From assembly GCA_019118865.1 (NCBI GenBank), contig DWYD01000194.1, positions 1 through 47,805 of the forward strand: a stretch of 47,805 nt of DNA, read 5' to 3'. A program made the translations under genes and the position numbers. Each line of letters opens with the position of its first letter. Position 1 is the first letter of the stretch. This document shows positions 5,886-30,260 of this stretch, in pieces. Below the pieces are notes generated by a model. It was not told the DNA's origin. It did no database searches and was given only the letters and a program-made list of their open reading frames with translations. The stretch comes from Candidatus Coprenecus merdipullorum. GTDB taxonomy: Bacteria > Bacteroidota > Bacteroidia > Bacteroidales > UBA932.

Positions 5886-7006
5886 AACCAAGAATCATCA
5901 CCGCGCTGGCTCTGGCCTGCGCCGTCACGGCAAATGCTGCCGCCCAGAACATCAACCGAATCGAAAAAGGCGGGGACATTCCCGATGGAGTTGTAGTGTA
6001 CTCTCTGCCTCTGACGACAATACGGCTGGACGTGGAGGCCGTATGCGAGGCATATACTCCCGGACCTTACAGCCAGTGGGCAAAAAAATATCTCGGAATC
6101 GATGTCCCGCAGGAAGCAGGCACATCCTACACGCTCAGCAAAGTCCGAATGACTCCTTTCCTTGAGGCTGACCGCAGCTGCAGCTATATCGTCAACCTGA
6201 GCGGACTTCTTGGAGATGCCTCCCCCGCCAATTTCTTTGAATTCTCATCCCAGGGCCTGCTGCTCCTGTCCGATGAGAACAAAGGCAACGGCAGTTCCTG
6301 GAGATTTCCCACCACGGCACCGGGCACAGGAACCATGGCATCCGAAGCTACATCCAACCTTACATCCACAGAGACGACCCTCTACAGATCTGTCCGCAAT
6401 GAAAGCGGAGGATACGACAGGGTCGCCGTCCGCCAGAGCCAGGTAGTTGAGAAAAGTCCTGAGAAAAAGGCCCAGGAAGCCGCAGCGATGATTCTGTCTC
6501 TGCGAGAAAGCCGCATCAACATCATTACCGGCAACACCGATGCGACATTCAGCGGGGACGCCCTCCGCGCCGCAGTTGAAGAGATAAGCCGCCTTGAGGA
6601 AGAATATATGAGCCTTTTCACCGGTGTCACCACAACTTCACTGCAGACTATGAGTTTCGATGTTGTTCCTGCCGCAGGGACAGAAGAGGATCTTACAATA
6701 GCCTTCCGGATTTCCGACACCCAGGGTCTACTTCCGGCAGATGACATTTCAGGCCGGCCCATTGTCATGGAGATTACTCCTGAAGATTCTGAAGATTTCT
6801 ACTCTGAGCAGGCTATAACAGAAACCAGGACTTCCAAATCCAGAGCCAGATACGAAGCCGACCAGCGCGGCAGCATATACTACCGCATACCTGCCATATG
6901 CTCCGTCAGAATTACCGACGGTCAGGATCTTATCCTCAAGAACCGCATGCCGGTGTATCAGAAAGGACAGGAGCTTTCATTCCCTGTCCATGTACTCGTA
7001 AAATGA
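5882..7006 (+). CDS. DUF4831 family secreted protein
   Basis: ORF 5864-7006; start at 5882 (MKPRIITALALACAVTANAAAQ) gives a clean signal peptide; DUF4831-like sequence (VVVYSLPLTTIRLDVEA). Confidence 0.8.
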   Translation: MKPRIITALALACAVTANAAAQNINRIEKGGDIPDGVVVYSLPLTTIRLDVEAVCEAYTPGPYSQWAKKYLGIDVPQEAGTSYTLSKVRMTPFLEADRSCSYIVNLSGLLGDASPANFFEFSSQGLLLLSDENKGNGSSWRFPTTAPGTGTMASEATSNLTSTETTLYRSVRNESGGYDRVAVRQSQVVEKSPEKKAQEAAAMILSLRESRINIITGNTDATFSGDALRAAVEEISRLEEEYMSLFTGVTTTSLQTMSFDVVPAAGTEEDLTIAFRISDTQGLLPADDISGRPIVMEITPEDSEDFYSEQAITETRTSKSRARYEADQRGSIYYRIPAICSVRITDGQDLILKNRMPVYQKGQELSFPVHVLVK

Positions 7007-10926: not shown

Positions 10927-11760
10927 TCAGACTACGTTGCGGAATCTCTCAGGTATCTCCACTACTACGCGCAGCCCCAGGCTGCCCGGCTTGTTGAGGG
11001 CAAATACCTGGCGCACCACCGTCTGTAACAGACGCATTCTTCTGACTGTGACATCCCAGGGACGGACATCTGCGGAAGTGACTATGCGTATGCTGCGGAC
11101 TCTCTTGCGGAAATGCCTTGACCACCCGCTGCTTATACGCTCCTTGTCTCCATGTTTCTTTTCCAGCATCTTATAGTCGACACAACCGAAATGGAAAAGA
11201 AAAAGATGCGGATCGATATGATAGTTGCGTCCCTTGACTCTGTGGAAACCGGAGCCCCAGCGCTGGCGTCCAGCCATGACAGTCGCCTTTGTGTAACGGG
11301 AGGTAAGATACCCGAATCGCCTCTGACTTAGAAAAGGACGCAGGGAATCTATCTCCGTCTCAAGTTCCAGATGCTGTGCAACATCCACCCCAAGCCCCGA
11401 AACGGTGGCCTTGATGTCCAGCGAGCTGAGGTATTCAGGGAGACTGACTCCGAGAGCGGGATCAACAGCCAGGAACTCATCCACATCCGTGCCGAGGGCC
11501 AGGTCATAACGGTCCATCAGAGATTGGGCACAACTGGAGATACAACGGATACGGCCCTTGTCGGCCTTTATCACCTTACCGGTAATACGTTCATGAACAA
11601 GAATATTCGCGCCTTGGCAGAAGTCCGGAGCCTTCTGGTCCTTGCCGTCAAAAAGAATGTACAGGTTCTCCTTGCCGAGTATGCCGCCATAGTAGCTCAC
11701 CCATTTGCGCAGGAAAAACTCGTCATTCCTGACCATTGTGATAGCGCAGATTCTTTTCAT
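10927..11760 (-). CDS. Glycosyltransferase, family 2-like / GT92-like
   Basis: MKRICAITMVRNDEFFLRKWVSYYGGILG...YDLALGTDVDEFL (DxD) typical of Glyco_tranf_2_4-like proteins. Confidence 0.8.
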   Translation of the reverse strand: MKRICAITMVRNDEFFLRKWVSYYGGILGKENLYILFDGKDQKAPDFCQGANILVHERITGKVIKADKGRIRCISSCAQSLMDRYDLALGTDVDEFLAVDPALGVSLPEYLSSLDIKATVSGLGVDVAQHLELETEIDSLRPFLSQRRFGYLTSRYTKATVMAGRQRWGSGFHRVKGRNYHIDPHLFLFHFGCVDYKMLEKKHGDKERISSGWSRHFRKRVRSIRIVTSADVRPWDVTVRRMRLLQTVVRQVFALNKPGSLGLRVVVEIPERFRNVV

Positions 11761-11776
11761 CCGTTAAAATAGCTGC

Positions 11777-11784
11777 CAAATATA
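11777..11784 (-). promoter_or_regulatory. -7 element TATATTTG upstream of the glycosyltransferase gene
   Basis: Exact TAnnTTTG on the minus strand, 16 nt upstream of the ATG. Confidence 0.5.
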
Positions 11785-11785
11785 C

Positions 11786-11823
11786 AAAAAAAATCCGCTC
11801 CGATACTCTCGAAGCGGATTTTT
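11786..11823 (-). terminator. Terminator for tRNA-His
   Basis: Minus strand aaaaatccgct...agcggattttt hairpin with flanking A/T tracts just after the tRNA 3' end. Confidence 0.8.
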
Positions 11824-11833
11824 GACGTTAAAG

Positions 11834-11908
11834 GGTGGAAGATGGGACTCGAACCCACGACCCTTGGTGCCACAAACCAATGCTCTAACCAACTGAGCTA
11901 CATCCACC
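11834..11908 (-). tRNA. tRNA-His (GTG)
   Basis: Minus strand GGTGGATGTAGCTCAGTTGGTTAGAGCATTGGTTTGTGGCACCAAGGGTCGTGGGTTCGAGTCCCATCTTCCACC; anticodon GTG; G-1:C73 identity pair; no encoded CCA. Confidence 0.95.
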
Positions 11909-11938
11909 ATTTAAAAATATTTCCCTCAAAAGGGAGTG

Positions 11939-11946
11939 CAAATATA
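11939..11946 (-). promoter_or_regulatory. -7 element TATATTTG upstream of tRNA-His
   Basis: TAnnTTTG on the minus strand, about 30 nt upstream of the tRNA 5' end. Confidence 0.5.
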
Positions 11947-11976
11947 AGAATACTTTTCTTATTCACGCAAATTTTC

Positions 11977-11984
11977 TATATTTG
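11977..11984 (+). promoter_or_regulatory. -7 element TATATTTG upstream of the carboxyltransferase gene
   Basis: TAnnTTTG 32 nt upstream of the ATG at 12017. Confidence 0.55.
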
Positions 11985-12016
11985 AAGACAAATTTTTAAC
12001 AAAACACTATTACCGT

Positions 12017-13798
12017 ATGGCACGTGAAATCAAATTCTCCCTTGTTTACAGGGATATGTGGCAGTCTTCGGGCAAATACGTCCCGAGGGTTGACCAGCTT
12101 GTTCAGATCGCTCCCGTCATCATCGACATGGGCTGTTTCGACAGGGTCGAGACCAACGGAGGAGCGTTCGAGCAAGTGAACCTCCTCTTCGGAGAGAACC
12201 CCAACAAGGCCGTAAGAGCCTGGACCGCACCCTTCAACAAAGTCGGCATACAGACACACATGCTCGAAAGAGGCCTTAACGCCCTCCGTATGAATCCAGT
12301 CCCGAGGGATGTCAGGGGCCTCATGTATAAGGTAAAGGCAAAACAGGGCACCAACATCTCCCGCTCGTTCTGCGGCCTCAACGACCACCGCAACCTCAAG
12401 GACTCCGTCATCCTCGCCAAGGAGGGCGGCATGATCTCCCAGGTGGCCCTCAGCATCACCTACTCCCCCATCCACACCGTAGAGTACTACATGGACATCG
12501 TGGACAAGGTGGTGGAGTACGGCTGCGACGAGACCTGTCTCAAGGACATGGCCGGCATCGGACGTCCCGCCTTCCTGGGCCGTCTGACCAAGAGCATCAA
12601 GGACAAATATCCCCACATCATCGTGCAGTATCACGGCCACTCGGGCCCCGGCTTCTCGACAGCCTCCATGCTGGAGGTGGCCCGCGCCGGCGCCGATTAT
12701 CTGGACGTGGCCATGGAACCCCTGTCCTGGGGTAAGATCCATCCCGACGTAATCACCATCCAGGCCATGCTCAAGGACGCAGGCTTCCTGGTCAAGGACA
12801 TCAACATGGACGCTTACATGGAGGCCCGCCGTCTTACCCAGACCTTCATCGACGACTTCCTGGGCATGTTCATCGAGCCGAACAACTACATCAGTTCCTC
12901 CCTCCTGGTAGGCTGCGGTCTGCCCGGCGGCATGATGGGCTCCATGATGGCCGACCTCAAGGGCTTCCAGAGCGCCATCAACATGTCACTGCGCAACCAG
13001 GGCAAGAAGGAGGTCTCCCTCAACGAACTGATGGTGATGCTGTTCCAGGAGGTAGAGTACGTATGGCCCAAGCTCGGCTATCCCCCTCTCGTAACTCCTT
13101 TCAGCCAGTATGTGAAGAACACCGCCCTGATGAACCTCATGCACACCCTCAAGGGCGAGCCCAGGTGGAAGACCATCGACAAGGACACCATGAACATGAT
13201 TCTCGGCAAGACCGGTACCCTACCCGGCCCTCTGGCTCCCGAGATTCTCAAGATAGTCAAGGAAAAAGGCCTGGAATTCTACACCGGCAATCCTCAGGAC
13301 GCCTTCCCCGACGAACTGCCTCACTTCATCGAGGAGATGAAGAAGGAAGGCTGGGACCGCGGTCAGGACGACGAGGAGCTCTTCGAGTTCGCAATGCACG
13401 AGCGCCAGTACCGGGACTACAAGAGCGGAGTGGCCAAGGACCGCTTCAACAAGGAGCTCGAGGCCGCACGCGAGAAGGCCGGTGCCCCGAAGATCGTCAC
13501 CCGCAAGGTGGTCGAGGTACCCGCATTCGATGTGGAGAAGATCATGGCAGAGCATCCCAAGGCCATGCCCATCCAGGCCGTTGCCAAAGGCAAGCTCATC
13601 TGGAGGTACAATGTCTCCGATGACAGCACTGCCCCCGCCATCGGCACCAAGTTCGAGGAGCTCACCCCGATCTGCTACATCCAGACCTACTACGGAGTGG
13701 AGCCTGTATATGCACCCATTACCGGCAAGCTCATCCAGATAGAAGTCAAGCACAACGAAAACGTGGAAATCAACCAGGTACTCTGCTTTATCGAGTAA
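12017..13798 (+). CDS. Pyruvate carboxylase subunit B / oxaloacetate decarboxylase alpha-like carboxyltransferase with degenerate C-terminal biotinyl-like domain
   Basis: HMGL-like carboxyltransferase TIM barrel (YRDMWQS, VETNGGAFEQ, LKDMAGIGRP, VQYHGHSGPGFSTASMLEVARAGADYLDVA), PYC_OADA-like middle and biotinyl-like end (APITGKLIQIEVKHNENVEINQVLCFIE). Confidence 0.88.
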   Translation: MAREIKFSLVYRDMWQSSGKYVPRVDQLVQIAPVIIDMGCFDRVETNGGAFEQVNLLFGENPNKAVRAWTAPFNKVGIQTHMLERGLNALRMNPVPRDVRGLMYKVKAKQGTNISRSFCGLNDHRNLKDSVILAKEGGMISQVALSITYSPIHTVEYYMDIVDKVVEYGCDETCLKDMAGIGRPAFLGRLTKSIKDKYPHIIVQYHGHSGPGFSTASMLEVARAGADYLDVAMEPLSWGKIHPDVITIQAMLKDAGFLVKDINMDAYMEARRLTQTFIDDFLGMFIEPNNYISSSLLVGCGLPGGMMGSMMADLKGFQSAINMSLRNQGKKEVSLNELMVMLFQEVEYVWPKLGYPPLVTPFSQYVKNTALMNLMHTLKGEPRWKTIDKDTMNMILGKTGTLPGPLAPEILKIVKEKGLEFYTGNPQDAFPDELPHFIEEMKKEGWDRGQDDEELFEFAMHERQYRDYKSGVAKDRFNKELEAAREKAGAPKIVTRKVVEVPAFDVEKIMAEHPKAMPIQAVAKGKLIWRYNVSDDSTAPAIGTKFEELTPICYIQTYYGVEPVYAPITGKLIQIEVKHNENVEINQVLCFIE

Positions 13799-13904: not shown

Positions 13905-14822
13905 TCATCTGCGCAAGCCTTGAAATTCCTCCTCTTGGGTCACCCTTAATTTTTCATATATCCGTTCGATAATCCGGGCATCCACTCCGTCATCAAATTT
14001 ACGGGCCCAGAAATGAGGGACACTCATCAGCAGGTCCCAGTCTTCAAGACGGAATGTCCACGGGTGACGGATACTCTCCCCGCGAGTCCAGTCAATAAAG
14101 CGCATATTGCTCTCATTTACCACATGTTCCTCTACAGGCTCCTTGACAAAGAGACGGTCCCTGAATGGAGAGTTCCATACAAGTGTGGCCAGAAATATCT
14201 CATCGCAGGTGTCGGTGTGGCTGAACACTTTCTCCAGCCATACCTCCTTTGACAGGACGTACCTGGCCAGAGGCTCGGTAATGCTGAACCACTGGGATGC
14301 GAAACGGAAATCCACATCACGGTTGATGCGGTAGCCGACTGCCATCTGCAGGCCTTTGAATATGTTGTTTGCAAGATTAGTCCAGAAATATCCGGCTCCT
14401 TCGGGAAACAAGGTGTAATAATGGAAACGGGACCTGGTTGTTTTCTTAAAATTCCAGAAATTGACAAATTCCGTCCCGCTGTGGCTGTCAAAAAAACTGT
14501 GTATCGTATCCTGGTCCTTAATAGGAAGGTCCATACCGGAAAGCAGGTGGAAGTAATCGTACTTTCCGTGGGAAAGTGCCTCACGCAGCAGGGCCAGCTC
14601 ACTACGCATAATGCTCACACCTCCCCAGCTGACCCTGAGACGGTTTTCCAAAAACACCAGGGCTGAATAACGGCACACATTCCGCCATTCCTCCGGGTCG
14701 AAAACCGCCTTCGCATCCACATGTACGAATATATCGTTGCGGGGATCATCGAGAAGTTCTATCAGCTTGCGCAGCTGAGAAAAATGGTGGTGAGCCAGTA
14801 TCAGGTATGCGTGTCTTTTCAT
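13905..14822 (-). CDS. GT14-type (core-2/I-branching beta-1,6-GlcNAc transferase-like) glycosyltransferase
   Basis: AYLILAHHHFSQLRKLIELLDDPRNDIFVHVDAK; YDYFHLLSGMDLPIKDQDTIHSFF. Confidence 0.9.
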   Translation of the reverse strand: MKRHAYLILAHHHFSQLRKLIELLDDPRNDIFVHVDAKAVFDPEEWRNVCRYSALVFLENRLRVSWGGVSIMRSELALLREALSHGKYDYFHLLSGMDLPIKDQDTIHSFFDSHSGTEFVNFWNFKKTTRSRFHYYTLFPEGAGYFWTNLANNIFKGLQMAVGYRINRDVDFRFASQWFSITEPLARYVLSKEVWLEKVFSHTDTCDEIFLATLVWNSPFRDRLFVKEPVEEHVVNESNMRFIDWTRGESIRHPWTFRLEDWDLLMSVPHFWARKFDDGVDARIIERIYEKLRVTQEEEFQGLRR

Positions 14823-16552
14823 TTTCTACCGTGCAATATTTTCCCACGAAGATAGGAAATATATCGTAAAATCATATCCGGACCGGAGCCTCCCAGCAGC
14901 CTGCCAACATAATCTTTACCGTACAGTCTGTCGGCATCCTCCCTGACAGCCGCTGCGACAGACGGATTTCCGGCATGTTCCAGCACATATCCGACCTGTC
15001 TTCCCAGACAGCCGTTGTGACGGGTAAACGCGCTTTTTTTTATAAAGGGCGCTCCTGCCTTCCAGGACGCCTTGACCCTGTTGTAAAAAGACTTACCCTT
15101 AAACCGGAACAATGCATCAAAAGTCACGGAATGACTTGCCAGGAGTTCCGTCAGTCCTGTCTCATACTTCATGCACACCGCTTCCTTGCTTTCCTGCGGT
15201 ACCACATCCTCCAAAAAACGTGAAAACCACTCAGAAAGAAACACCTCTTTCCGCAGTCCTATGAACCAGGACTGAAGATGAGGCCGGCGGTGATGAGGAT
15301 TGAGCACCATGCCCGATGCCCCGGTACCCATAGACTCCATCCTCTCCAGACAGCTCCCCAGAGACCGCAACGGGCCATATACCGAATCATTGACCAGGTA
15401 CAGCACGTCGTAGTCCCGCAGGGACAAATGTTCCCTCGCCCATGCATATGCACGTTTATAAGAGCCGAAGTCATATTCTCCGTGGCGCTCCGCGCCGCAG
15501 TACAGTACGTATGGCCTGAGCTTATCCTGCTCCCCGGCCGCCGCAGCATTGTCCATCACCACGATGACATCCCCATAAACGGAAAGTTCCCTGACATAAG
15601 CCTCCAGCGCCGGTCCTACCTCACCTTTTCTGTCATACGCAGCCATAAGGAACAGCCTTCTGACTCTTCTCCCTGCCAGATGATAATAAATCTTGTCAAT
15701 GATGTCACTGTCCACGCCCTCGTCGAATTTTCTCGCCCAGAAATGCGGCACGCTCATCAGCAGGTTCCAGTCCTCCAGGCGGAATGTCCACGGATGGCGG
15801 CAGCTGCTTCCCCGGCTCCAGTCGATAAAACGCATGTTGCTCATGTTGACGGCATGGTTCTTCGCCACCTCGCAGCAGTACAGGTTCTGACGGAACGGGG
15901 AATTCCATACGACAGTAGCCAGAAACAGTTCATCGCAGTTGGACGTGTGGCTGAACACCTTCTCCAGCCAGTCCTCCTTCGAGATGATGTAGCGGACGAG
16001 CGGATCGGTGATGCTGAACCATACCGATGAGAAATGGAAATCCACATCTTTGTTGATGCCACGCCCCGCCGCCTTCTGGATATCCTTGAACAGACCGTTG
16101 ACAAAGTGCGAGAGAAAGTTTCTCTCCCCCTCGGGGAACAGCGTATAATAGCGGACTCTTTCATAAATATCCCCGTCCATCTCCCAGAAGTCGATGAACT
16201 CCTTGCCATCGTGCTTCTCGAAAAATGCATGGACTGTATCCTGGTCCTTCAACGGCAGGTCCATACCTGAAAGCAGATGGTAGTAGCTGTACGGACCGTA
16301 AGCGACAGCCTCTTTCAGCAGTGCCAGCTCGCACCTCATGCTGTTCACTCCACCCCAGTATACTTTCTTTCTCGGCTCTATGAAAACCAGTCTGGAGAAA
16401 CTGCAGGCATTCTTCCATTTATCAGGATTAAAGGACGCCTTCCCGTCTACATGCACGAAGATATCATTGCGCGGATCGTCCAGCAGGGACAGCAGCTTGC
16501 GGAACTGTCCGAAATTCTTATGGACCAGAATCAAATAAGCGTGACGTCTCAT
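14819..16552 (-). CDS. Two-domain glycosyltransferase: N-terminal GT14 plus C-terminal rhamnan-synthesis F (RgpF)-like domain
   Basis: Residues 1-290 parallel the neighbouring GT14; C-terminus YVRELSVYGDVIVVMDN...EYDFGSYKRAY...DVLYLVNDSVYGPL...LQSWFIGLRKEVF is RgpF-like. Confidence 0.85.
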   Translation of the reverse strand: MRRHAYLILVHKNFGQFRKLLSLLDDPRNDIFVHVDGKASFNPDKWKNACSFSRLVFIEPRKKVYWGGVNSMRCELALLKEAVAYGPYSYYHLLSGMDLPLKDQDTVHAFFEKHDGKEFIDFWEMDGDIYERVRYYTLFPEGERNFLSHFVNGLFKDIQKAAGRGINKDVDFHFSSVWFSITDPLVRYIISKEDWLEKVFSHTSNCDELFLATVVWNSPFRQNLYCCEVAKNHAVNMSNMRFIDWSRGSSCRHPWTFRLEDWNLLMSVPHFWARKFDEGVDSDIIDKIYYHLAGRRVRRLFLMAAYDRKGEVGPALEAYVRELSVYGDVIVVMDNAAAAGEQDKLRPYVLYCGAERHGEYDFGSYKRAYAWAREHLSLRDYDVLYLVNDSVYGPLRSLGSCLERMESMGTGASGMVLNPHHRRPHLQSWFIGLRKEVFLSEWFSRFLEDVVPQESKEAVCMKYETGLTELLASHSVTFDALFRFKGKSFYNRVKASWKAGAPFIKKSAFTRHNGCLGRQVGYVLEHAGNPSVAAAVREDADRLYGKDYVGRLLGGSGPDMILRYISYLRGKILHGRK

Positions 16553-16568
16553 ATTGCTTCTATTTTAC

Positions 16569-17468
16569 TCACATCCTCAGCATTATATCTGAAAAACTGC
16601 CGGGTACCGGCGATGAGGCTGCTGCGGACTTGTATTCGGTTTTCTGAAAAAAAGAGCCGGCTGTCAACCTGCTGAATTCTTCCTGGCAGAAAGGTCTGTT
16701 CCTGTAGTCCCACCACAGGACATGCGTGGGATCCTGGCTGATCCGTGGCATTCGGGCGAACAGAGCGGCAGCCCTCGGATTATTCTCGACAGCGAGTCTG
16801 AATAGTAACTGATGTACGAAATAGTCAACCGTACTGCTCTCATATTTCCAGTAGGCCTGCATGGCTGTATTCCAGGCTTTGAGCAGATAATTTCCTTTCC
16901 TGGACCTGAAAAAACAGTTCTGGACAAAGGCATAAGCCCCGAAAACAGATTCTCCGCTCATGAAGATAAAAAAATCCTGGTTCATAATACTGTCCGGGAC
17001 AGGAGATGTCATAAAGTCTGTCGCATCCATCCACACTCCCCCGTGCCTGTAAAGCAGCTCCGTACGGCAGATATCTGAAAAATGGGCCGGGCGGATCTTT
17101 CCGGCCTTCCATTTGTCCATGATGTACCCCGGCAAATCTATCCAGTCCGACATACTGCTGCTGTCCAGCACTACCAGTTCCTGCCTGCTGTGCCTCCTCA
17201 TGCTTCTGAAACATGCCTTTACAATAGGCGGCGCATTCTCCTCCCCCTGCAGCCATATTGAGAACATTCTCTCAGGCTCCTTCCCTGCAGGACCGTCTTC
17301 CGGTATATCGCTGATATAAGGGACGTATTGCTGAAGATAGGCAAGCACTGCATCACGCACAGCATCTCCGCGGCGGCGGCGTCTCTCTGAATCAGGCAGC
17401 CACAGCCAGTTGAGAATATGCCCGTACAAGGCAATATGCAGATGCACATTAATTCTTCTTAGGTTCAT
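16569..17468 (-). CDS. Capsular polysaccharide synthesis / DXD sugar-binding glycosyltransferase
   Basis: MFSIWLQGEENAPPIVKACFRSMRRHS...HFSDICRTELLYRHGGVWMDATDF, typical of Caps_synth/OCH1-like GTs; start set at MNLRR because the longer ORF start (17522) runs into a terminator hairpin. Confidence 0.85.
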   Translation of the reverse strand: MNLRRINVHLHIALYGHILNWLWLPDSERRRRRGDAVRDAVLAYLQQYVPYISDIPEDGPAGKEPERMFSIWLQGEENAPPIVKACFRSMRRHSRQELVVLDSSSMSDWIDLPGYIMDKWKAGKIRPAHFSDICRTELLYRHGGVWMDATDFMTSPVPDSIMNQDFFIFMSGESVFGAYAFVQNCFFRSRKGNYLLKAWNTAMQAYWKYESSTVDYFVHQLLFRLAVENNPRAAALFARMPRISQDPTHVLWWDYRNRPFCQEEFSRLTAGSFFQKTEYKSAAASSPVPGSFSDIMLRM

Positions 17469-17502
17469 GACAAATGAAGTTCCGTTATATATAATCAAAA
17501 GA

Positions 17503-17532
17503 ATTCCGGCAGATACGGACACCTGCCGGAAT
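17503..17532 (-). terminator. Terminator downstream of PFOR
   Basis: Perfect 10-bp stem attccggcag/ctgccggaat flanked by A/T stretches. Confidence 0.65.
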
Positions 17533-17560: not shown

Positions 17561-20500
17561 CTACTGGGCCAGTCTCTTATAGGACTCGTAGCGGATCTTG
17601 GCAAACTGCTCGGTCTTGTCGAAGAGTTCCTGAGCGATGTCGGGGAAGCTCTTCATCAGCGAGCTGTAGCGCACCTCTCCTTTGATGAACTCCTGGAACT
17701 TGCTCCAGTCGGGCTCCTTGCTGTCGAGGCTGAAAGGATTCTTGCCCTCCTCGGCCAGAGCCGGGTTGAAGTGATACAGATGCCAGTAACCGCACTCGAC
17801 GGCGAGTTTCTCCTCGTGCTGGCTCCTGCCCATGCCGTTGCGCAGACCGTGGTTGATGCAGGGTGCGTAGGCGATGATCAGGGAAGGTCCGTTGTATGCC
17901 TCAGCCTCCTTGAGCACGTTGAAATACTGAGCGGGGCTGGCGCCCATAGCCACCTGCGCGACGTACACGTAGCCATAGCTCATGGCCATCATGCCGAGGT
18001 CTTTCTTGCGTACTCTCTTGCCCGAGGTTGCGAACTTGGCCACGGCACCTGCAGGGGTCGATTTGGACGACTGTCCACCGGTGTTGGAGTACACCTCTGT
18101 GTCGAGAACGAGGACGTTGACATTCTCGCCGGAAGCCAGGACATGGTCCAGTCCGCCGTATCCGATGTCGTATGCCCAGCCGTCACCGCCGAAGATCCAC
18201 TGGCTACGGGCAGGGATGTAGTCCTTGTATCCGAGAAGCTCGCGGCATGCCTCGCAGTCGCTTTCCTCGAGCATCGGCACGAGCTTGTCGCAGATCTCGC
18301 GGGTTGCAGCGGCGTTGCCTCTCTCAGAGAGCCACTGCTCGAAGAGGGCCTTGATCTCGGAAGAGCACTTCGGGCACTCCAGTCCCTTCTTCATCAGCTC
18401 TGCCACTGTATTGCGCAGACGCTCGGTTCCTAGTCTCATACCGAGACCGAACTCGGCGTTGTCCTCGAACAGGGAGTTGTCCCATGCGGGTCCGCGGCCG
18501 TTGCGGTCGGTGCAGTAAGGAGACGAGGGGAAGGAGCCGCTGTAGATAGAAGAGCAACCGGTAGCATTGGCCACCATCATGTGGTCGCCGAAGAGCTGGG
18601 TGATGGTCTTGATGTAAGGTGTCTCACCGCAGCCGGCGCAGGCACCTGAGAACTCGAACAGAGGCTGTGAGAACTGGGAGTTCTTGAGGTTCTGAGTCTT
18701 GGGAGCAACGGTATCCTTGTAGCCCACGTTGGCATGCATGTAGTCAAATACAGGCTGCTGGTCCATCTGAGTGGCAAGGTGCTTCATTTCGAGAGCCTTC
18801 TCCTTGGCGGGACATACGTCCACGCAGTTGCCGCAGCCGGTGCAGTCCATTGGAGACACCTGCATGGTGAAGCGGTAAGCCTTGAAAGCGGCGATGCCCT
18901 GGGTGCTCTTGACTGCCTTGGGAGCCTTGGCCAATTCCTCCTCAGTAGAGAGGAAAGGACGGATGGCGGCGTGAGGGCAGACGTATGCGCACTGATTGCA
19001 CTGGATACATTTCTCAGGATTCCACTCGGGAACGCTTACGGCGATACCTCTCTTTTCGAATGCAGCTGTACCGGCAGGGATAGTTCCGTCTGCATGCTCT
19101 CCGGTAAAGGCGCTGACAGGGATGTCATATCCGTTCTGGGCGTTGACCACATCGGCCACGCTGCGCACCCACTCGGGCGCCAGACGGTCGAAGTTGGCGG
19201 GACGGAAGCGGGCAACGATGCCGTTCCACTCGGCAGGTACTGCCAGTTCCTCGTACTCGGCTCCGCGGTCCACTGCGGCGTAGTTCATGCTGACCACCTT
19301 CTCTCCCTTCTTGCCGTAGCTCTTGTCGATGGCTTTCTTCATGAAGGCCACTGCCTGCTCGTAGGGGATGATGCCTGTAATCTTGAAGAATGCCGACTGG
19401 AGGATGGTGTTGGTACGGTTGCCCAGACCTATCTCCTCGGCTATCTTGGTAGCGTTGATGATGTATACCTTCAGGTTCTTCTCGGCGATAACCTGCTTTA
19501 CATGATCAGGGATTCTCTTGATGGTCTCCTCTACAGACCAGAGGCTGTTGAGGAGGAATGTACCGCCTCTCTTGATACCCTTGAGCACATCGTACTTGTA
19601 GAGGTATGAAGGCACGTGGCAGGCCACGAAGTCAGGCGTGGATACGAGGTAGGGAGAAGTAATCGGGCTGTCACCGAAACGCAGGTGCGAGCAGGTATAA
19701 CCGCCGGACTTCTTGGAATTGTAGTCGAAATATCCCTGGCAGTACTTGGGAGTATGGTCGCCGATAATCTTGATGGTGTTCTTGTTGGCGCCCACTGTAC
19801 CGTCGGAACCGAGACCGTAGAACTTGCACTCGTATGTACCCTTCTTTGCCAGTGATACTTCTTCGCCTACAGGGAGGGACTTGAATGTCACGTCATCGGT
19901 GATGCCGATGGTGAAGTCTGCCTTGGGCTGTTTCTGCTTGAGGTTCTTGAACACTGCGAAGATCTGGGCAGGACTGGTATCCTTAGAGGACAGACCGTAA
20001 CGGCCGCCGATGACATAGGGAGCCTCTCCGCCCATCTCGGCGAGAGTTGACTTGATATCCAGATACAGAGGCTCGCCCACACTTCCGGGCTCCTTGCAGC
20101 GGTCGAGAACGGCGATTCTCCTGACGCTCTTGGGCAGTACCCTGAAGAAATACTTGGCGGAGAAAGGTCTGTACAGACGTACGGTAATCACACCTACCTT
20201 CTCGCCCTTGGCCATGAGAGCGTCAACTACCTCACGGATAGTCTCGCAAACAGATCCCATGGCAATGATTATATCCTTGGCATCCGGATCTCCGTAGTAG
20301 TCGAACGGCAGGTAATGGCGTCCTGTCAGCTCGCCTATCTCGCCCATATAGCGGGCTACGATGTCGGGAACCGCATTGTAGTATGTATTGCATGCTTCAC
20401 GTGCCTGGAAATATACATCGGGATTCTGTGCAGTACCGCGGGTCACCGGTTTATTGGGATTGAGGGCTTTTCTGCGGAAAGCAGCGAGAGCCTTCTCGCT

Positions 20501-21091
20501 GATCATTCCCTTGAGAGCCTCGGAATCCAGAACCTCTATCTTCTGAATCTCGTGGGACGTACGGAATCCGTCAAAGAAGTGGATGAAAGGCACACTGGAC
20601 TTGATGGTGGACAGATGGGCCACAGCACCGAGATCCATGGCTTCCTGCACGCTAGAGGAGGCAAGCATGGCGAAACCTGTCTGCCTGCAGGCCATCACGT
20701 CCTGATGGTCTCCGAAAATGGAAAGAGCCTGTGTAGCAAGAGCACGGGCGGAGACATGGAACACTGTAGGCAGCAGCTCGCCCGCAATCTTATACATGTT
20801 GGGAATCATCAGCAGCAGTCCCTGGGATGCGGTGAAAGTAGTTGTCAGGGCACCTGCCTGAAGCGAACCGTGAACTGCACCGGCAGCACCGCCCTCACTC
20901 TGCATCTCAGTGACCTTAACAGTCTCTCCGAAAAGATTCTTCTTACCGAAAGCAGCCCACTCGTCCACATACTCGGCCATAGTCGAAGAAGGCGTGATGG
21001 GATAGATGGCGGCATGCTCGCTGAACATGTACGCAACATGTGCGGCGGCGTAGTTACCGTCACAGGTAATAAATGTTTTTTCTTTTGCCAT
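17561..21091 (-). CDS. nifJ: Pyruvate:ferredoxin (flavodoxin) oxidoreductase, fused single-chain form
   Basis: 1176 aa; ITPSSTMAEYVDEWAA; two 4Fe-4S motifs (CIQCNQCAYVCPH, CTGCGNCVDVCPA); TPP-binding GDGWAYDIGYGGLDHVLASGENVNVLVLDTEVYSNTGGQ. Confidence 0.97.
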   Translation of the reverse strand: MAKEKTFITCDGNYAAAHVAYMFSEHAAIYPITPSSTMAEYVDEWAAFGKKNLFGETVKVTEMQSEGGAAGAVHGSLQAGALTTTFTASQGLLLMIPNMYKIAGELLPTVFHVSARALATQALSIFGDHQDVMACRQTGFAMLASSSVQEAMDLGAVAHLSTIKSSVPFIHFFDGFRTSHEIQKIEVLDSEALKGMISEKALAAFRRKALNPNKPVTRGTAQNPDVYFQAREACNTYYNAVPDIVARYMGEIGELTGRHYLPFDYYGDPDAKDIIIAMGSVCETIREVVDALMAKGEKVGVITVRLYRPFSAKYFFRVLPKSVRRIAVLDRCKEPGSVGEPLYLDIKSTLAEMGGEAPYVIGGRYGLSSKDTSPAQIFAVFKNLKQKQPKADFTIGITDDVTFKSLPVGEEVSLAKKGTYECKFYGLGSDGTVGANKNTIKIIGDHTPKYCQGYFDYNSKKSGGYTCSHLRFGDSPITSPYLVSTPDFVACHVPSYLYKYDVLKGIKRGGTFLLNSLWSVEETIKRIPDHVKQVIAEKNLKVYIINATKIAEEIGLGNRTNTILQSAFFKITGIIPYEQAVAFMKKAIDKSYGKKGEKVVSMNYAAVDRGAEYEELAVPAEWNGIVARFRPANFDRLAPEWVRSVADVVNAQNGYDIPVSAFTGEHADGTIPAGTAAFEKRGIAVSVPEWNPEKCIQCNQCAYVCPHAAIRPFLSTEEELAKAPKAVKSTQGIAAFKAYRFTMQVSPMDCTGCGNCVDVCPAKEKALEMKHLATQMDQQPVFDYMHANVGYKDTVAPKTQNLKNSQFSQPLFEFSGACAGCGETPYIKTITQLFGDHMMVANATGCSSIYSGSFPSSPYCTDRNGRGPAWDNSLFEDNAEFGLGMRLGTERLRNTVAELMKKGLECPKCSSEIKALFEQWLSERGNAAATREICDKLVPMLEESDCEACRELLGYKDYIPARSQWIFGGDGWAYDIGYGGLDHVLASGENVNVLVLDTEVYSNTGGQSSKSTPAGAVAKFATSGKRVRKKDLGMMAMSYGYVYVAQVAMGASPAQYFNVLKEAEAYNGPSLIIAYAPCINHGLRNGMGRSQHEEKLAVECGYWHLYHFNPALAEEGKNPFSLDSKEPDWSKFQEFIKGEVRYSSLMKSFPDIAQELFDKTEQFAKIRYESYKRLAQ

Positions 21092-21129: not shown

Positions 21130-21990
21130 TTACTTTTCAGCCGGAAGGCATTTCTTGATAAGTCCTTGGAGAACGGCCCCGGGACCGAGCTCCACAAACT
21201 CCGATGCACCGTCACGATGCATGTTGAGGACAGTCTGCGTCCATCTCACGGGGGAGGTAAGCTGCTTCAGCAGTTTCTCCTTGATTACCGCCGGGTCTGT
21301 CGAAGGCAGGGCGTCCACGTTCTGATACACAGGGCAGACCGGAGTCTTTATCTCCGTCCGTCCTATCGCCTCGGCCAGTTCTACACGGGCAGGTTCCATC
21401 AGAGGAGAATGAAATGCCCCTCCCACAGCCAGACGCAGTGCTCTCTTGGCACCGGCCTCCTTAAGCACGGCGCATGCCTTGTCCACCGCCTCTATTTCAC
21501 CGGATATCACAAGCTGTCCGGGACAGTTGTAATTGGCAGGGACCACTATTCCGTCTATCTCCGCACAAGCCTTCTCCACTGCATCATCAGGCAGTCCGAT
21601 GATGGCTGCCATCGTCGAAGGATGTGCCTCGCAGGCCTTCTGCATAGCCATTGCCCTGGCATATACCAGACGGAGCCCGTCCTCGAAGGACATTGCTCCC
21701 GCCGCTACAAGAGCCGAGAACTCTCCTAAGGAATGTCCTGCAGTCATATCAGGGTGGAAATCCTCAATAGTGACTGCAGCGGCTACTGAATGAATGAAAA
21801 CAGCCGGCTGGGTAACTCTGGTCTGTTTAAGATCGTCTGCCGAGCCGGTGAACATTATATTGCGTATATCGAATCCAAGAATATCGCAAGCACTGTCAAT
21901 CAGTGCCTTTGCCTTGGGACTGGCATCATACAGATCCTTGCCCATCCCTGTAAACTGTGCTCCCTGACCGGGAAAAACATAAGCTGTCAT
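21130..21990 (-). CDS. fabD: Malonyl-CoA:ACP transacylase
   Basis: VFPGQGAQFTGMG; GHSLGEFSALVAAGAMSFEDGLRLVYAR; GGAFHSPLM. Confidence 0.96.
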   Translation of the reverse strand: MTAYVFPGQGAQFTGMGKDLYDASPKAKALIDSACDILGFDIRNIMFTGSADDLKQTRVTQPAVFIHSVAAAVTIEDFHPDMTAGHSLGEFSALVAAGAMSFEDGLRLVYARAMAMQKACEAHPSTMAAIIGLPDDAVEKACAEIDGIVVPANYNCPGQLVISGEIEAVDKACAVLKEAGAKRALRLAVGGAFHSPLMEPARVELAEAIGRTEIKTPVCPVYQNVDALPSTDPAVIKEKLLKQLTSPVRWTQTVLNMHRDGASEFVELGPGAVLQGLIKKCLPAEK

Positions 21991-22824: not shown

Positions 22825-23739
22825 ATGACAACTGCCAAAAATGTAGCCCTGGTCCTGGCCAGCGGCGGGTCCAGAGGGCTGGCCCACATAGGGGCGATAG
22901 AAGTTCTGGAAGAACACGGATTCAGAATAACCTCGATAGCAGGAGCCTCCATGGGCGCCCTGGTGGGAGGAATATACGCAGCAGGAGGACTGGAGGCATT
23001 TAAAGAATGGATGAAAACCGTAGACCGGATGAAAGTCCTCAACCTGATGGACTTCACTATAGGAAACGGCGGCTTCGTCAAGGGAGAAAAAGTAATATCC
23101 GAGCTCAAGAGCATTATTCCTGACAAGTCAATCGAGAACCTTCCGGTACCGTTTACAGCTGTCGCGACCGACATCCTCCACCGGCGGGAAGTGGTATTCG
23201 ACAGCGGAAGCCTCTACGATGCCATCCGCTCTTCCATCTCCATGCCCTCAATATTCACACCCTACCGGATCAAAGACATGCTCCTGGTAGACGGAGGCGT
23301 GGTCAATCCTGTTCCCGTCAACAGAGTTCCAAGGACACCCGGCGATATACTCGTAGCAGTTGACCTCAACGGTCCGTTCATATCCAGGCAAGAGGAAAAG
23401 CCCGAACACCAGAAAGAGAAAGGACGCGTACGCCAGAGAATCGAGAAGATCATGGATTCTTTCGCAGACAAGGTGAAAAAGGAAGAAGTAGACGCACATA
23501 TTCTGCCGCAGAACAATGAAAAAGAGGATGAAAACGATATGGGTATCGTATCCATCCTCAATCAGTCATCGAGCATGATGATTCAGACCAATGCGGACCT
23601 GACCCTCAAGCTCTACCCTCCTGACATCCTCGTGCGCATCGCCAAGAACGCATATTCGACCATGGAGTTCTACAAGTACGACGAGATCGTCGCCCTCGGC
23701 CGCACAAAGATGGAGGAAGCCCTGCGGAATTTCCGCTAG
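22825..23739 (+). CDS. Patatin-like phospholipase family protein
   Basis: SGGSRGLAHIGAIEVL, GASMG nucleophile elbow (GxSxG), DGG (LLVDGGVVNPVP). Confidence 0.93.
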   Translation: MTTAKNVALVLASGGSRGLAHIGAIEVLEEHGFRITSIAGASMGALVGGIYAAGGLEAFKEWMKTVDRMKVLNLMDFTIGNGGFVKGEKVISELKSIIPDKSIENLPVPFTAVATDILHRREVVFDSGSLYDAIRSSISMPSIFTPYRIKDMLLVDGGVVNPVPVNRVPRTPGDILVAVDLNGPFISRQEEKPEHQKEKGRVRQRIEKIMDSFADKVKKEEVDAHILPQNNEKEDENDMGIVSILNQSSSMMIQTNADLTLKLYPPDILVRIAKNAYSTMEFYKYDEIVALGRTKMEEALRNFR

Positions 23740-24485
23740 AGCATACCGCCGTCACAGATAATCACCTGACCTGTCACATACGAGGAGAGGTCGGATGCGA
23801 GGAACAGAGCCACATTGGCGATGTCCTCGGGTGTACCGCCGCGACGGAGAGGAATCTTCTTGTTCCACTCGTCACGCACCTCCTGAGGCAGTGCATTGGT
23901 CATGTCGGTGATGATGAAACCGGGCGCTATGGCGTTGGCGCGGATGCCGCGTGAACCCATCTCCTTGGCTATGGACTTGGCCAGACCGATCAGACCGGCT
24001 TTGGAAGCGGAGTAGTTGCACTGTCCGGCGTTGCCGTTCACACCCACCACCGAAGAGATGTTGATGATGCTGCCGCCTCTCTGACGTGCCATGATGGGAG
24101 TCAGGGCATGGGTGAAGTTGAAAGCACTCTTGAGATTGACTGTGATGACGCTGTCCCACTGCTGTTCGGACATCCTCATCATCAGACCGTCACGGGTAAT
24201 GCCGGCATTATTGACCAGAATGTCGATGTGACCGAAATCTTTCTGAATCTGATCTACGGTAGCGTGAGCTTCGGCGAAGTCGGCGGCATTCGAGGCATAG
24301 CCCCTGCACTGCACGCCGAGGGCGGAGATTTCCGCTACGGTGTTTTTGAAATTGTCGTCCTCCTTGAGGTCAGTGAAAGCTATGTCAGCTCCGGCAGAAG
24401 CCAGCTTCATGGCTATGGCCTTGCCTATTCCTCTGGCAGCTCCGGTAATGAGAGCCACCTTTCCTTTTAATAATCCTTCCAGCAT
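23736..24485 (-). CDS. fabG: 3-oxoacyl-ACP reductase
   Basis: SDR: TGAARGIGKAIA, NNAGITRD, YSASKAGLIGLAKS. Confidence 0.95.
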   Translation of the reverse strand: MLEGLLKGKVALITGAARGIGKAIAMKLASAGADIAFTDLKEDDNFKNTVAEISALGVQCRGYASNAADFAEAHATVDQIQKDFGHIDILVNNAGITRDGLMMRMSEQQWDSVITVNLKSAFNFTHALTPIMARQRGGSIINISSVVGVNGNAGQCNYSASKAGLIGLAKSIAKEMGSRGIRANAIAPGFIITDMTNALPQEVRDEWNKKIPLRRGGTPEDIANVALFLASDLSSYVTGQVIICDGGML

Positions 24486-24488
24486 AAT

Positions 24489-24920
24489 TTATTTTACTTT
24501 ATCATTTGGAATTACTGCGAACGACAGGTTCGCCTCCACTGCAAGCTCGCCGTCCACCATTGCCTTGGCCTCTATATAGAACAGCATGGCCCTGTGATTG
24601 GTAATGTGGGCGTGCACCTCAACGGTGTCACCGGGACGGACCTGACGTTTGAAGCGGGTCTTGTCGATACCTGTGAAGAGGGTAGTGTGACCTACCAGAT
24701 AATCCTTGATGAGCAGTGAGCTGCACTGCCCCATAATCTCGCAGAGGATGACTCCGGGCACTACCGGATAGCCGGGAAAATGTCCCTGGAGGAAGAACTC
24801 GTCACCCCTGACATGGTACTTTCCGATACACTCGGTACCTTCATTCTGAAGTTCCATCTCGTCCACCAGAAGCATGGGCTCGCGGTGGCGCAGGAATTGT
24901 TTTATTTCTTCTCTATCCAT
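24489..24920 (-). CDS. fabZ: 3-hydroxyacyl-ACP dehydratase
   Basis: HFPGYPVVPGVILCEIMGQ; start set at MDREEIKQFLRHREPMLLVDE. Confidence 0.93.
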   Translation of the reverse strand: MDREEIKQFLRHREPMLLVDEMELQNEGTECIGKYHVRGDEFFLQGHFPGYPVVPGVILCEIMGQCSSLLIKDYLVGHTTLFTGIDKTRFKRQVRPGDTVEVHAHITNHRAMLFYIEAKAMVDGELAVEANLSFAVIPNDKVK

Positions 24921-24945
24921 AATATTGAGTTTAGTTAGTACATGG

Positions 24946-26211
24946 TCAGATGAGTCTGAACGCAAGCACGGCATTGTGCCCGCCGAATCCCAGGGACGAG
25001 GAGAGAGCCATGGTCAGCCTGGCCTCACGGGCAGTGTTGGGATTGACATCCAGGTCGCACTCGGGATCAGGTTCCTTATAGTGGATGGTAGGAGGTACTA
25101 TTCCGTTCTTCAAGGCGAGCACAGCTGCCACAGCCTCGATACCGCCGGCAGCTCCGAGAGCATGTCCGGTCATGGACTTGGTGGAACAGAGAATGGCACG
25201 GCGGGCCTCAGACTCACCGAGGGCGAGCTTGATGGCTGCTGTCTCCGACTTGTCGTTCAGAGGGGTACCGGTACCGTGAGTATTGATGTGCAGCAGGTCA
25301 GAGGTCGAATAGTGAGCCTCGGTCAGAGCCTGCCTGAAAGCCTTGGCGGGTGTCGAACCGTCCGGACAGGGGGCCGTATAATGGTAAGCGTCGCATGTAT
25401 TGCCGTAACCGCATATCTCTGCGTATATCTTCGCTCCACGGGCGACGGCGTGCTCATACTCCTCGAGGACCACTACTCCGGCGCCCTCTGCGATGACGAA
25501 GCCCTGACGGCGGGCATCGAAGGGCAGTGAGGCTGCCATGGGATCCTCTGCAGGAGAGAGGGCCTTGCTGTTGGAGAAACCTCCGATGGCCAGAGGGGTG
25601 ACAGCAGCCTCGGTACCGCCGGCGATAATGGCGTCCGCATATCCGAACTTGATGGCCCTGTATGCCTCACCTATAGAGTGTGTACCTGTGGCACAGGCAG
25701 TCACGATAGGCAGGCAGACACCGCGGGCGTGATGGGCTATCGCTACATTGCCTGCGGCTATATTGGCTATCATGGTGGGGATGAACAGAGGCGATATCCA
25801 CTGAGGGCCGTCCTTGATCAACTTGGCAGTCTCGTTGACGAAAGAATGCATGCCTCCGATACCTGAGCCGATATATACTCCGAAACGGTCGGCGTGCACT
25901 GTTCCGGGAGTATTGTCCTCCTCGTCATCCGTCGCCTTAAGTCCGCTCATGGCCACTGCCTGATTGGCTGCTGCGAGGGCAAAAAGGCTGAAACGGTCGA
26001 ACTTCCTGGCCGCCTTGGGCTCAATACCGTAATCCGCGGGCTTGAAGTCTTTCACTTCTCCTGCAATCTTTACTGAAAGACCGTCAGTGGGGAACTGCGT
26101 GATAAAATCGATTCCGCAGACACCGTCCACGATGTTCTTCCAGAAAGTCTCCACATTGTTTCCGACAGGGGAGACCACTCCTAAACCTGTCACTACTACT
26201 CTTTTTTCCAT
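24946..26211 (-). CDS. fabF: Beta-ketoacyl-ACP synthase II
   Basis: VVVTGLGVVSPVGNNVETFW; TACATGTHSIGEAYRAI; INTHGTGTPLND; STKSMTGHALGAAGG. Confidence 0.96.
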   Translation of the reverse strand: MEKRVVVTGLGVVSPVGNNVETFWKNIVDGVCGIDFITQFPTDGLSVKIAGEVKDFKPADYGIEPKAARKFDRFSLFALAAANQAVAMSGLKATDDEEDNTPGTVHADRFGVYIGSGIGGMHSFVNETAKLIKDGPQWISPLFIPTMIANIAAGNVAIAHHARGVCLPIVTACATGTHSIGEAYRAIKFGYADAIIAGGTEAAVTPLAIGGFSNSKALSPAEDPMAASLPFDARRQGFVIAEGAGVVVLEEYEHAVARGAKIYAEICGYGNTCDAYHYTAPCPDGSTPAKAFRQALTEAHYSTSDLLHINTHGTGTPLNDKSETAAIKLALGESEARRAILCSTKSMTGHALGAAGGIEAVAAVLALKNGIVPPTIHYKEPDPECDLDVNPNTAREARLTMALSSSLGFGGHNAVLAFRLI

Positions 26212-26222
26212 ATAGTTTTATT

Positions 26223-27179
26223 TTACTTTGACCAGCGGAGAATACATGCACCGGTAGTGAATCCTGCTCCGAACGCACTGAGCAGCAGCATTTCTCCTGT
26301 TTTTAATTGATTACCTCTACTGAGGTCGTCCAGCAGAGCGGGTATCGACGCGGACGAGGTGTTTCCGTACTTGTCGAGGTTGAATGGAAACTTGCTCTTA
26401 TCCTGATTGACGAAATGACGGATGGACTCGATGATGCGGACATTGGCCTGATGCAGCACATACAGGTCGATGTCATCCGCTGTCATGCCGGCCATGGTCA
26501 GCACCTTGTCGATATCCTTGATGGAAGAGGATACGGCGAGCTTGAATACATCCTGACCGTTCATAACCACACCCTCAGTGTCGACCTCCTCCTTGGTTAT
26601 GAAGGGAGTCGGCTGAAGCTTGCGCTTCTGGTAGAGAGCCTCTACCTTGCAATGGGTGGACACGCGGATGGCCTTCAGGTCATCACCCTTGGTTACTACC
26701 ACAGCACCGGCTGCATCTCCGAAGAGGATGCAGGAGGAGCGGTCATGCCAGTTCATCATGCGGGCAGGCTCCTCGGCACAGACGATGAGGATGTTCTTCA
26801 GGTCCTTGGTGGCCAGGTACGCCTCAGCTATATCGAGAGCGTAGATAAATCCCGTGCAGGCACAGTTGATGTCCACGGTGGGGCATGTAGCGCCCAGCAT
26901 TCCCTGGATGACACATCCCAAACCGGGAGTGACATATTCGTTCACCACATTGGAACAGATGATGAAATCCACCTGCTCCGATGTTATCCTCGCGTCTTCC
27001 ATGGCATTCCGGGCAGCTGTCGCAGCCAGGTCCTCCAGTCTCTCGGAGGATATTACGCGCCTTTCATGGATGCCGGTACGGGTCACGATCCACTCGTCGC
27101 TGGTATCCAGAAAGTTCTCCAGCATCGCATTGGTCACGACCTTTGAGGGGCGCGCACTGCCAGTTCCTATAATTCTCAT
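26223..27179 (-). CDS. fabH: Beta-ketoacyl-ACP synthase III
   Basis: Catalytic Cys (INCACTGFIYALDIA), His (LHQANVRI), Asn (YGNTSSASIP). Confidence 0.95.
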   Translation of the reverse strand: MRIIGTGSARPSKVVTNAMLENFLDTSDEWIVTRTGIHERRVISSERLEDLAATAARNAMEDARITSEQVDFIICSNVVNEYVTPGLGCVIQGMLGATCPTVDINCACTGFIYALDIAEAYLATKDLKNILIVCAEEPARMMNWHDRSSCILFGDAAGAVVVTKGDDLKAIRVSTHCKVEALYQKRKLQPTPFITKEEVDTEGVVMNGQDVFKLAVSSSIKDIDKVLTMAGMTADDIDLYVLHQANVRIIESIRHFVNQDKSKFPFNLDKYGNTSSASIPALLDDLSRGNQLKTGEMLLLSAFGAGFTTGACILRWSK

Positions 27180-27269: not shown

Positions 27270-27277
27270 AAGGGTTG

Positions 27278-28975: not shown

Positions 28976-28998
28976 GTCGGTTTATAATTTTTCTGTTT

Positions 28999-30258: not shown

Positions 30259-30260
30259 TT

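Follow-up and report, generated by a model that had tools for sequence, protein, structure and literature searches.

What does a carboxyltransferase do when the lysine that should carry biotin is missing from its own biotinyl-like domain and its genus encodes no biotin carboxylase? This question is raised by a stretch of 47,805 nucleotides from Candidatus Coprenecus merdipullorum (hereafter the window, meaning the whole stretch analysed), which encodes a 593-aa carboxyltransferase (CT) not far from a set of fatty-acid genes (Table 1). From its motifs, its relatives and their gene neighbourhoods, we conclude that this CT is probably the 5S-like subunit of a three-part transcarboxylase in which BCCP and MmdA are supplied in trans, and we predict that it supports the reaction oxaloacetate + acetyl-CoA -> pyruvate + malonyl-CoA.

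Table 1. Positions of the features discussed in the text, with the clade-B proteins used for comparison
Feature	Position in window	Strand	Remarks
Clade-C carboxyltransferase (CT)	12017-13798	+	593 aa; 5S/OadA-like CT domain, PYC_OADA domain and degenerate biotinyl tail
Biotinyl-like tail (predicted fold) without biotinyl Lys	13559-13795	+	Residues 515-593; AlphaFold2 pLDDT 89.5; Foldseek 1bdo TM 0.86; pN/pS 0.22
QTYYG hairpin motif	13682-13696	+	Tyr559 codon (13691-13693) at the biotinyl Lys position
Pyruvate:ferredoxin oxidoreductase (PFOR, nifJ type)	17561-21091	-	TIGR02176, 1905.6 bits, over cut-off; synteny
fabD, malonyl-CoA:ACP transacylase	21130-21990	-	TIGR00128, 321.6 bits, over cut-off
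fabG-like ketoacyl-ACP reductase	23736-24485	-	PF13561; 41% to L087 FabG
fabZ/fabA-like dehydratase	24489-24974	-	PF07977
fabF-like ketoacyl-ACP synthase II	24946-26211	-	PF00109/PF02801; 64% to L087 FabF
fabH-like ketoacyl-ACP synthase III	26223-27179	-	PF08541/PF08545
Clade-B proteins			L167, L168, L169, L171, L173, L155, L158, L159, L160, L179, L180

Profile searches matched the CT to PF02436 and PF00682, with PF00364 below threshold, and the protein resembles the PycB, OadA and 5S carboxyltransferases while scoring far under every equivalog cut-off. Because it reaches just 157 bits against the transcarboxylase 5S equivalog NF008984 (cut-off 827), we do not file it as a member of the 5S family and propose only that it would work like one; the OadA model TIGR01108 gives 222 bits against a cut-off of 756.5. 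Across an alignment of 46 relatives, the RDxxQ (R12, D13, Q16), KDMA (K176, D177) and HxH (H206, H208) motifs are invariant, and these are the metal and substrate motifs known for the enzyme class. Judged by these residues, the catalytic centre of the CT is intact. The full-length AlphaFold2 model (pLDDT 83.6) has its best fold matches in Foldseek to PycB (5ks8) and transcarboxylase 5S (1rqh; TMt 0.82), and also matches OadA (2nx9).

The initial annotation had read the C-terminus as a biotinyl-like fold with a tyrosine where the biotinylated lysine belongs, and both parts of that reading are borne out. PF00364 alone scores the tail at 16.8 bits, under its gathering cut-off of 22.1; a profile built from 51 relatives, however, matches residues 516-592 with E. 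coli BCCP (E ~1e-4) and with the biotinyl domain of PycB (5ks8), pairs the QTYYG-type motif with the EAMKM of E. coli BCCP, and places Y559 on the lysine position, with no conserved lysine in the alignment. Modelled alone with AlphaFold2, the tail reaches a mean pLDDT of 89.5 and turns its hairpin at Y558-Y559, and its top match among 350,542 PDB chains is the E. coli BCCP biotinyl domain 1bdo (Foldseek TM 0.86/0.85, rmsd 2.2 A). An hhalign comparison with one MmdC covered the second half of the tail only, and the structural search settled the fold: the last 79 residues are predicted to form a biotinyl domain, a flattened beta-barrel. Two of the results that the initial annotation had named as refuting it, a conserved lysine at the hairpin tip and a tail of some other fold, therefore did not arise in the alignment and the model.

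Lysine occupies the hairpin position in none of 117 distinct relatives of the window's type (clade C, below), versus 15 of 15 proteins in the OadA sister group (clade A). Its absence from all 117 rules out chance or a sequencing slip, and by this count the missing lysine is a fixed family trait of clade C. Within the genus, the tail has a pooled pN/pS of 0.22, compared with 0.14 in the linker and 0.05 in the CT domain, and W529, Y559, G560 and E562 are invariant among 74 relatives; together the tail's ratio and these residues rule out a recent pseudogene or a decaying tail, and the substitution pattern is one of purifying selection. The earlier suggestion that the domain may have turned structural or regulatory fits such selection on a domain closed to standard biotinylation. 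We take its role to be probably structural or one of docking, and the tail clearly exemplifies a swinging-arm domain that is minus its prosthetic-group site and still maintained by selection.

How this architecture arose can be followed within the Bacteroidales, where the wider family forms three groups. Clade A comprises OadA proteins with an EAMK(T/V) motif and a GTGH loop, flanked in annotated cases by oadG before and oadB after. Clade-A OadA (L022, L023) shares ~51-63% identity with the window CT over the aligned part and has a homologous tail; unlike the window CT, it has the biotinylation motif, a linker in front of the biotinyl domain, and oadG and oadB as neighbours. Clade C, the type found in the window, comprises proteins of ~577-621 aa without the lysine, in which the CT loop reads mostly G(K/M)(V/I)H, a departure from GTGH that we count against the reading proposed here. 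We dropped an attempt to pin this loop change to a named catalytic residue, the alignment with PC being ambiguous there. Clade-B proteins (~720 aa) have the tail swapped for a longer region with a genuine biotinyl domain at its end (PF00364 56.8 bits; AMKMEN). In a tree of the CT part, clade A is a basal grade, B and C form one clade (100/100) and B is nested within C, from which it follows most simply that the common stem of B and C lost the lysine and that B afterwards acquired a carrier again, through fusion; by this topology, clade C arose from a biotinylated OadA. Clades A and C occur together in several species, such as Bacteroides finegoldii (L022 and L021). The closest named relative of the window CT comes from Candidatus Coprenecus stercoravium (L030, 93%), and each of the 18 genomes of the genus (its own and 17 others) holds one CT copy and no other OadA-like gene at the same threshold.

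The gene content of the genus is equally distinctive. None of the 18 genomes yielded a biotin carboxylase in a search that was positive in 13 of 14 control genomes; the single silent control was Thermotoga maritima, whose order is reported to be without the biotin carboxylase of acetyl-CoA carboxylase (PMC3199775). A genus without biotin carboxylase has no standard acetyl-CoA carboxylase, though its fatty-acid genes are present. BirA is found in all 18 genomes and OadB/MmdB in 17, and one member of the genus (G004) encodes a complete mmdA-mmdD-mmdC-mmdB operon with mce upstream. The window's own assembly, 81.5% complete, yielded no mmdA, and its only OadB/MmdB match is an MmdB end at the edge of another contig, followed by the genes that also lie downstream in G004. 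The initial annotation had seen no biotin carboxylase, oadB or oadG gene beside the CT, and none was found adjoining it in the window. Of the two partners that it had proposed seeking elsewhere in the genome, biotin carboxylase is absent throughout the genus and a stand-alone BCCP was not recovered in the window's own assembly. Its suggestion that the enzyme may use a separate BCCP gains strong support from relatives whose operons combine CT, MmdA and a BCCP with EAMKM, and from the mmdA-mmdC locus of the genus.

Two such operons each lie on a single strand. In locus L182 (genome G093), the CT gene is followed 74 bp downstream by mmdA, then by a small MmdD-like ORF and a BCCP gene with EAMKM; this MmdA (PF01039) has TIGR01117 as its best family at 820.7 bits, yet falls under that model's cut-off. 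Some 2 kb downstream of the L182 operon lies a Cas9-like gene (10959-13001). Locus L087 (Bacteroidales RGIG5433) runs fabK-like, fabF, fabZ, mmdA, BCCP, fabD, fabG and CT, with the ATG of the CT gene ~15 bp past fabG. The 12S-type (mmdA) and BCCP partner genes are likewise present at loci L210 and L213. Between mmdA and the BCCP gene of L210, whose genome has lost MmdB, a 72-aa MmdD-like ORF without a membrane part (6419-6634) is a putative soluble remnant of a dismantled Na+ decarboxylase.

Linkage to fatty-acid genes extends beyond L087. In 10 further relatives, fabD lies ~0.15-4.6 kb from the clade-C CT, mostly with an adjacent PFOR gene, and PFOR is a recurrent neighbour of both genes. A rough count gives fabD linkage in 11 of 80 loci, against 0.6% expected for each; when the cases, which are mostly close relatives, are counted conservatively as two lineages, p is ~0.006. 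By this rough count the linkage is far above chance, most of the fabD/PFOR cases coming from one set of close relatives and L087 being the only fully separate fab-operon case. In the window, three glycosyltransferase-like ORFs (13905-17522) separate CT from PFOR, as they do in L029; the gap is just ~90 bp in the closest relatives L108-L110, so this block is variable. Beyond the fab genes of the window (27275-31757) lie genes for a formiminotransferase-cyclodeaminase, an amidohydrolase and an aromatic amino acid lyase, a cluster of the histidine-degradation type. Taken together, the lack of biotin carboxylase in the genus and the closeness of the fab genes to the CT point to a transcarboxylase, a reading absent from the initial annotation, as were both of these observations, and suggest that the CT, working with a separate biotin carrier, probably stands in for the enzyme that normally opens fatty-acid synthesis, in bacteria where that enzyme is missing.

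In the mechanism that we propose, the CT would move the carboxyl group of oxaloacetate onto biotin on a separate BCCP (MmdC, EAMKM), leaving pyruvate. The carboxybiotin would then swing to an MmdA-type (12S-like) subunit, which would convert acetyl-CoA to malonyl-CoA and probably also interconverts propionyl-CoA and methylmalonyl-CoA. Genomes without biotin carboxylase would in this way obtain malonyl-CoA for fatty-acid synthesis with no ATP spent at the transcarboxylase step. The C-terminal domain, presumably descended from the biotinyl domain of the OadA ancestor, would now be a fixed structural part serving assembly, docking or as a lid. PFOR would turn the product pyruvate back into acetyl-CoA and FabD would take up the malonyl-CoA, which would make the neighbourhood metabolically coherent.

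Transcarboxylase is known from propionibacteria, and the parallels are close. Like the 5S subunit of Propionibacterium shermanii (1rqb/1rqh; with 12S and 1.3S), the window protein is a pyruvate/oxaloacetate CT domain without biotin of its own and without a biotin carboxylase, and relatives of it have the same types of partner, an acyl-CoA carboxyltransferase and a small BCCP, encoded beside them. Unlike 5S, whose alignment ends at residue 462 and includes no counterpart of the tail, the window CT retains a degenerate biotinyl domain and appears to have arisen from a Bacteroidales OadA. The same three-part enzyme could instead run the Propionibacterium reaction, methylmalonyl-CoA + pyruvate -> propionyl-CoA + oxaloacetate, its job being propionate rather than malonyl-CoA; we consider this unlikely, although it is the strongest competitor. 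It draws on the mce-mmdA-BCCP loci of two Dysgonomonas-like clade-C genomes without MmdB, G035 (also without biotin carboxylase) and G125 (biotin carboxylase present), and on the adjacency of mce and mmdA in G004. At the Dysgonomonas-like loci, mmdA adjoins methylmalonyl-CoA epimerase, which favours methylmalonyl-CoA as the probable substrate there. A propionate role leaves unexplained both the malonyl-CoA source of genomes without biotin carboxylase and the linkage to fab operons and fabD; the two reactions can, moreover, coexist in one enzyme.

Could the CT stand in for the usual alpha subunit of a Na+-translocating oxaloacetate decarboxylase, borrowing MmdC and MmdB from methylmalonyl-CoA decarboxylase? 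OadB/MmdB occurs in 17 of 21 tested clade-C genomes, and the sister clade A consists of OadA proteins accompanied by oadG and oadB. The four remaining genomes, all of high quality (G030, G035, G093 and G125), have a clade-C CT without any OadB/MmdB, which weakens Na+ pumping as a general role; moreover, none of the clade-C loci read showed linkage to oadG or oadB, and pairing with mmdA and fab genes would be unexpected of such a pump. We judge it improbable. In G030, a relative at the family level that is 100% complete, mmdA and BCCP are kept while MmdB is missing genome-wide and biotin carboxylase is absent, and G093 likewise yielded neither biotin carboxylase nor OadB/MmdB. With mmdA and BCCP present and both biotin carboxylase and MmdB absent, the only job that known enzymes would leave to biotin in G030, G035 and G093 is to ferry carboxyl groups from one carboxyltransferase to another.

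That the CT is instead a biotin-independent oxaloacetate decarboxylase, aldolase or lyase, with the TIM-barrel metal site kept and the tail used for assembly only, would accord with the missing lysine, with the HMGL-like superfamily fold, and with the lone free-standing gene of many genomes, the window included. We give it little credence, since the operons with BCCP and a CoA carboxyltransferase, together with the biotinyl domain gained anew by fusion in clade B, argue that the CT domain still acts on biotin. The CT half of a pyruvate carboxylase, with biotin carboxylase and BCCP in trans, is very improbable despite the similarity of the CT to PycB, and, barring an unrecognised biotin carboxylase, is rejected for the genus: biotin carboxylase is found in 0 of its 18 genomes, and is missing from 16 of the 22 clade-C genomes of our survey. 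PycB of the two-subunit pyruvate carboxylase (5ks8) shares the order and fold of the CT and biotinyl domains and, unlike the window CT, carries biotin and depends on a biotin carboxylase partner.

That survey covered 119 Bacteroidales genomes from ~98 families, at least 95% complete except for the window's own assembly (81.5%), which was included; its statistics ignore kinship. With kinship so ignored, PYC_OADA CTs occur in 39 of 47 genomes without biotin carboxylase versus 33 of 72 with it (Fisher p 3.7e-5), and clade C occurs in 16 of 47 versus 6 of 72 (p 5e-4). The association is not strict, since six clade-C genomes have biotin carboxylase and eight near-complete genomes (G023, G044, G046, G051, G082, G085, G094 and G113) have neither biotin carboxylase nor a PYC_OADA CT; these eight also imply that other solutions exist. 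BCCP co-occurrence was uninformative as a test, BCCP being present in 117 of the 119 genomes.

Several clade-B genes adjoin a CoA carboxyltransferase, enoyl-CoA hydratase, acyl-CoA dehydrogenase or HMG-CoA-lyase-like gene, and some clade-B genomes are without biotin carboxylase. These neighbours make clade B a candidate oxaloacetate-dependent methylcrotonyl-CoA transcarboxylase, an arrangement in which the CT would have taken the place of the biotin carboxylase part of methylcrotonyl-CoA carboxylase. The widest form of our proposal, which we advance tentatively and with slightly less than even confidence, is that many Bacteroidales without biotin carboxylase, and hence without acetyl-CoA carboxylase, make malonyl-CoA by ATP-free transfer from oxaloacetate through a three-part transcarboxylase derived from an OadA with a dead biotinyl domain, and that the CT module subsequently acquired a carrier domain by fusion and replaced biotin carboxylase, giving oxaloacetate-dependent carboxylation of methylcrotonyl-CoA in leucine breakdown.

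Bacteria are usually assumed, almost without exception, to begin fatty-acid synthesis with acetyl-CoA carboxylase, itself a drug target. If our proposal is true, a large group of Bacteroidales from the gut dispenses with that enzyme, forms malonyl-CoA without ATP at that step, and ties its lipid synthesis directly to the flux of oxaloacetate and pyruvate. A precedent lies in Giardia, for which Jordan et al. in 2003 reportedly proposed that a fusion protein makes malonyl-CoA from oxaloacetate without biotin carboxylase. A later paper (PMC8700996), citing Jordan et al. 2003 for "transcarboxylase", describes this PC/ACC/BCCP fusion as GL50803_113021, of 1338 aa. The likeness lies in the combination of PC-type and ACC-type enzymes with a BCCP; the Giardia enzyme is one fused eukaryotic protein, whereas separate bacterial subunits would act here, the CT among them bearing a dead biotinyl domain. 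Two genome-based studies point away from a Bacteroidales transcarboxylase: a reconstruction of gut propionate pathways places the enzyme only in Propionibacterium and Corynebacterium (PMC9403272), and Xylanibacter ruminicola is described as using a Na+ pump rather than transcarboxylase (PMC11575231). The open-access literature that we searched contained no description of an oxaloacetate-dependent malonyl-CoA route in bacteria or of the Bacteroidales form. What is new here is a proposed Bacteroidales form of transcarboxylase that bears a dead biotinyl domain and may replace acetyl-CoA carboxylase.

Ten other PYC_OADA genes from genomes without biotin carboxylase include seven that encode no biotin domain of any kind. 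These seven (L195-L198 and L202-L204), CTs of ~570 aa from Bacteroidales without biotin carboxylase, mostly end in a ...RLMxGLYNYNW-like sequence and are possibly a second, independent 5S-like line.
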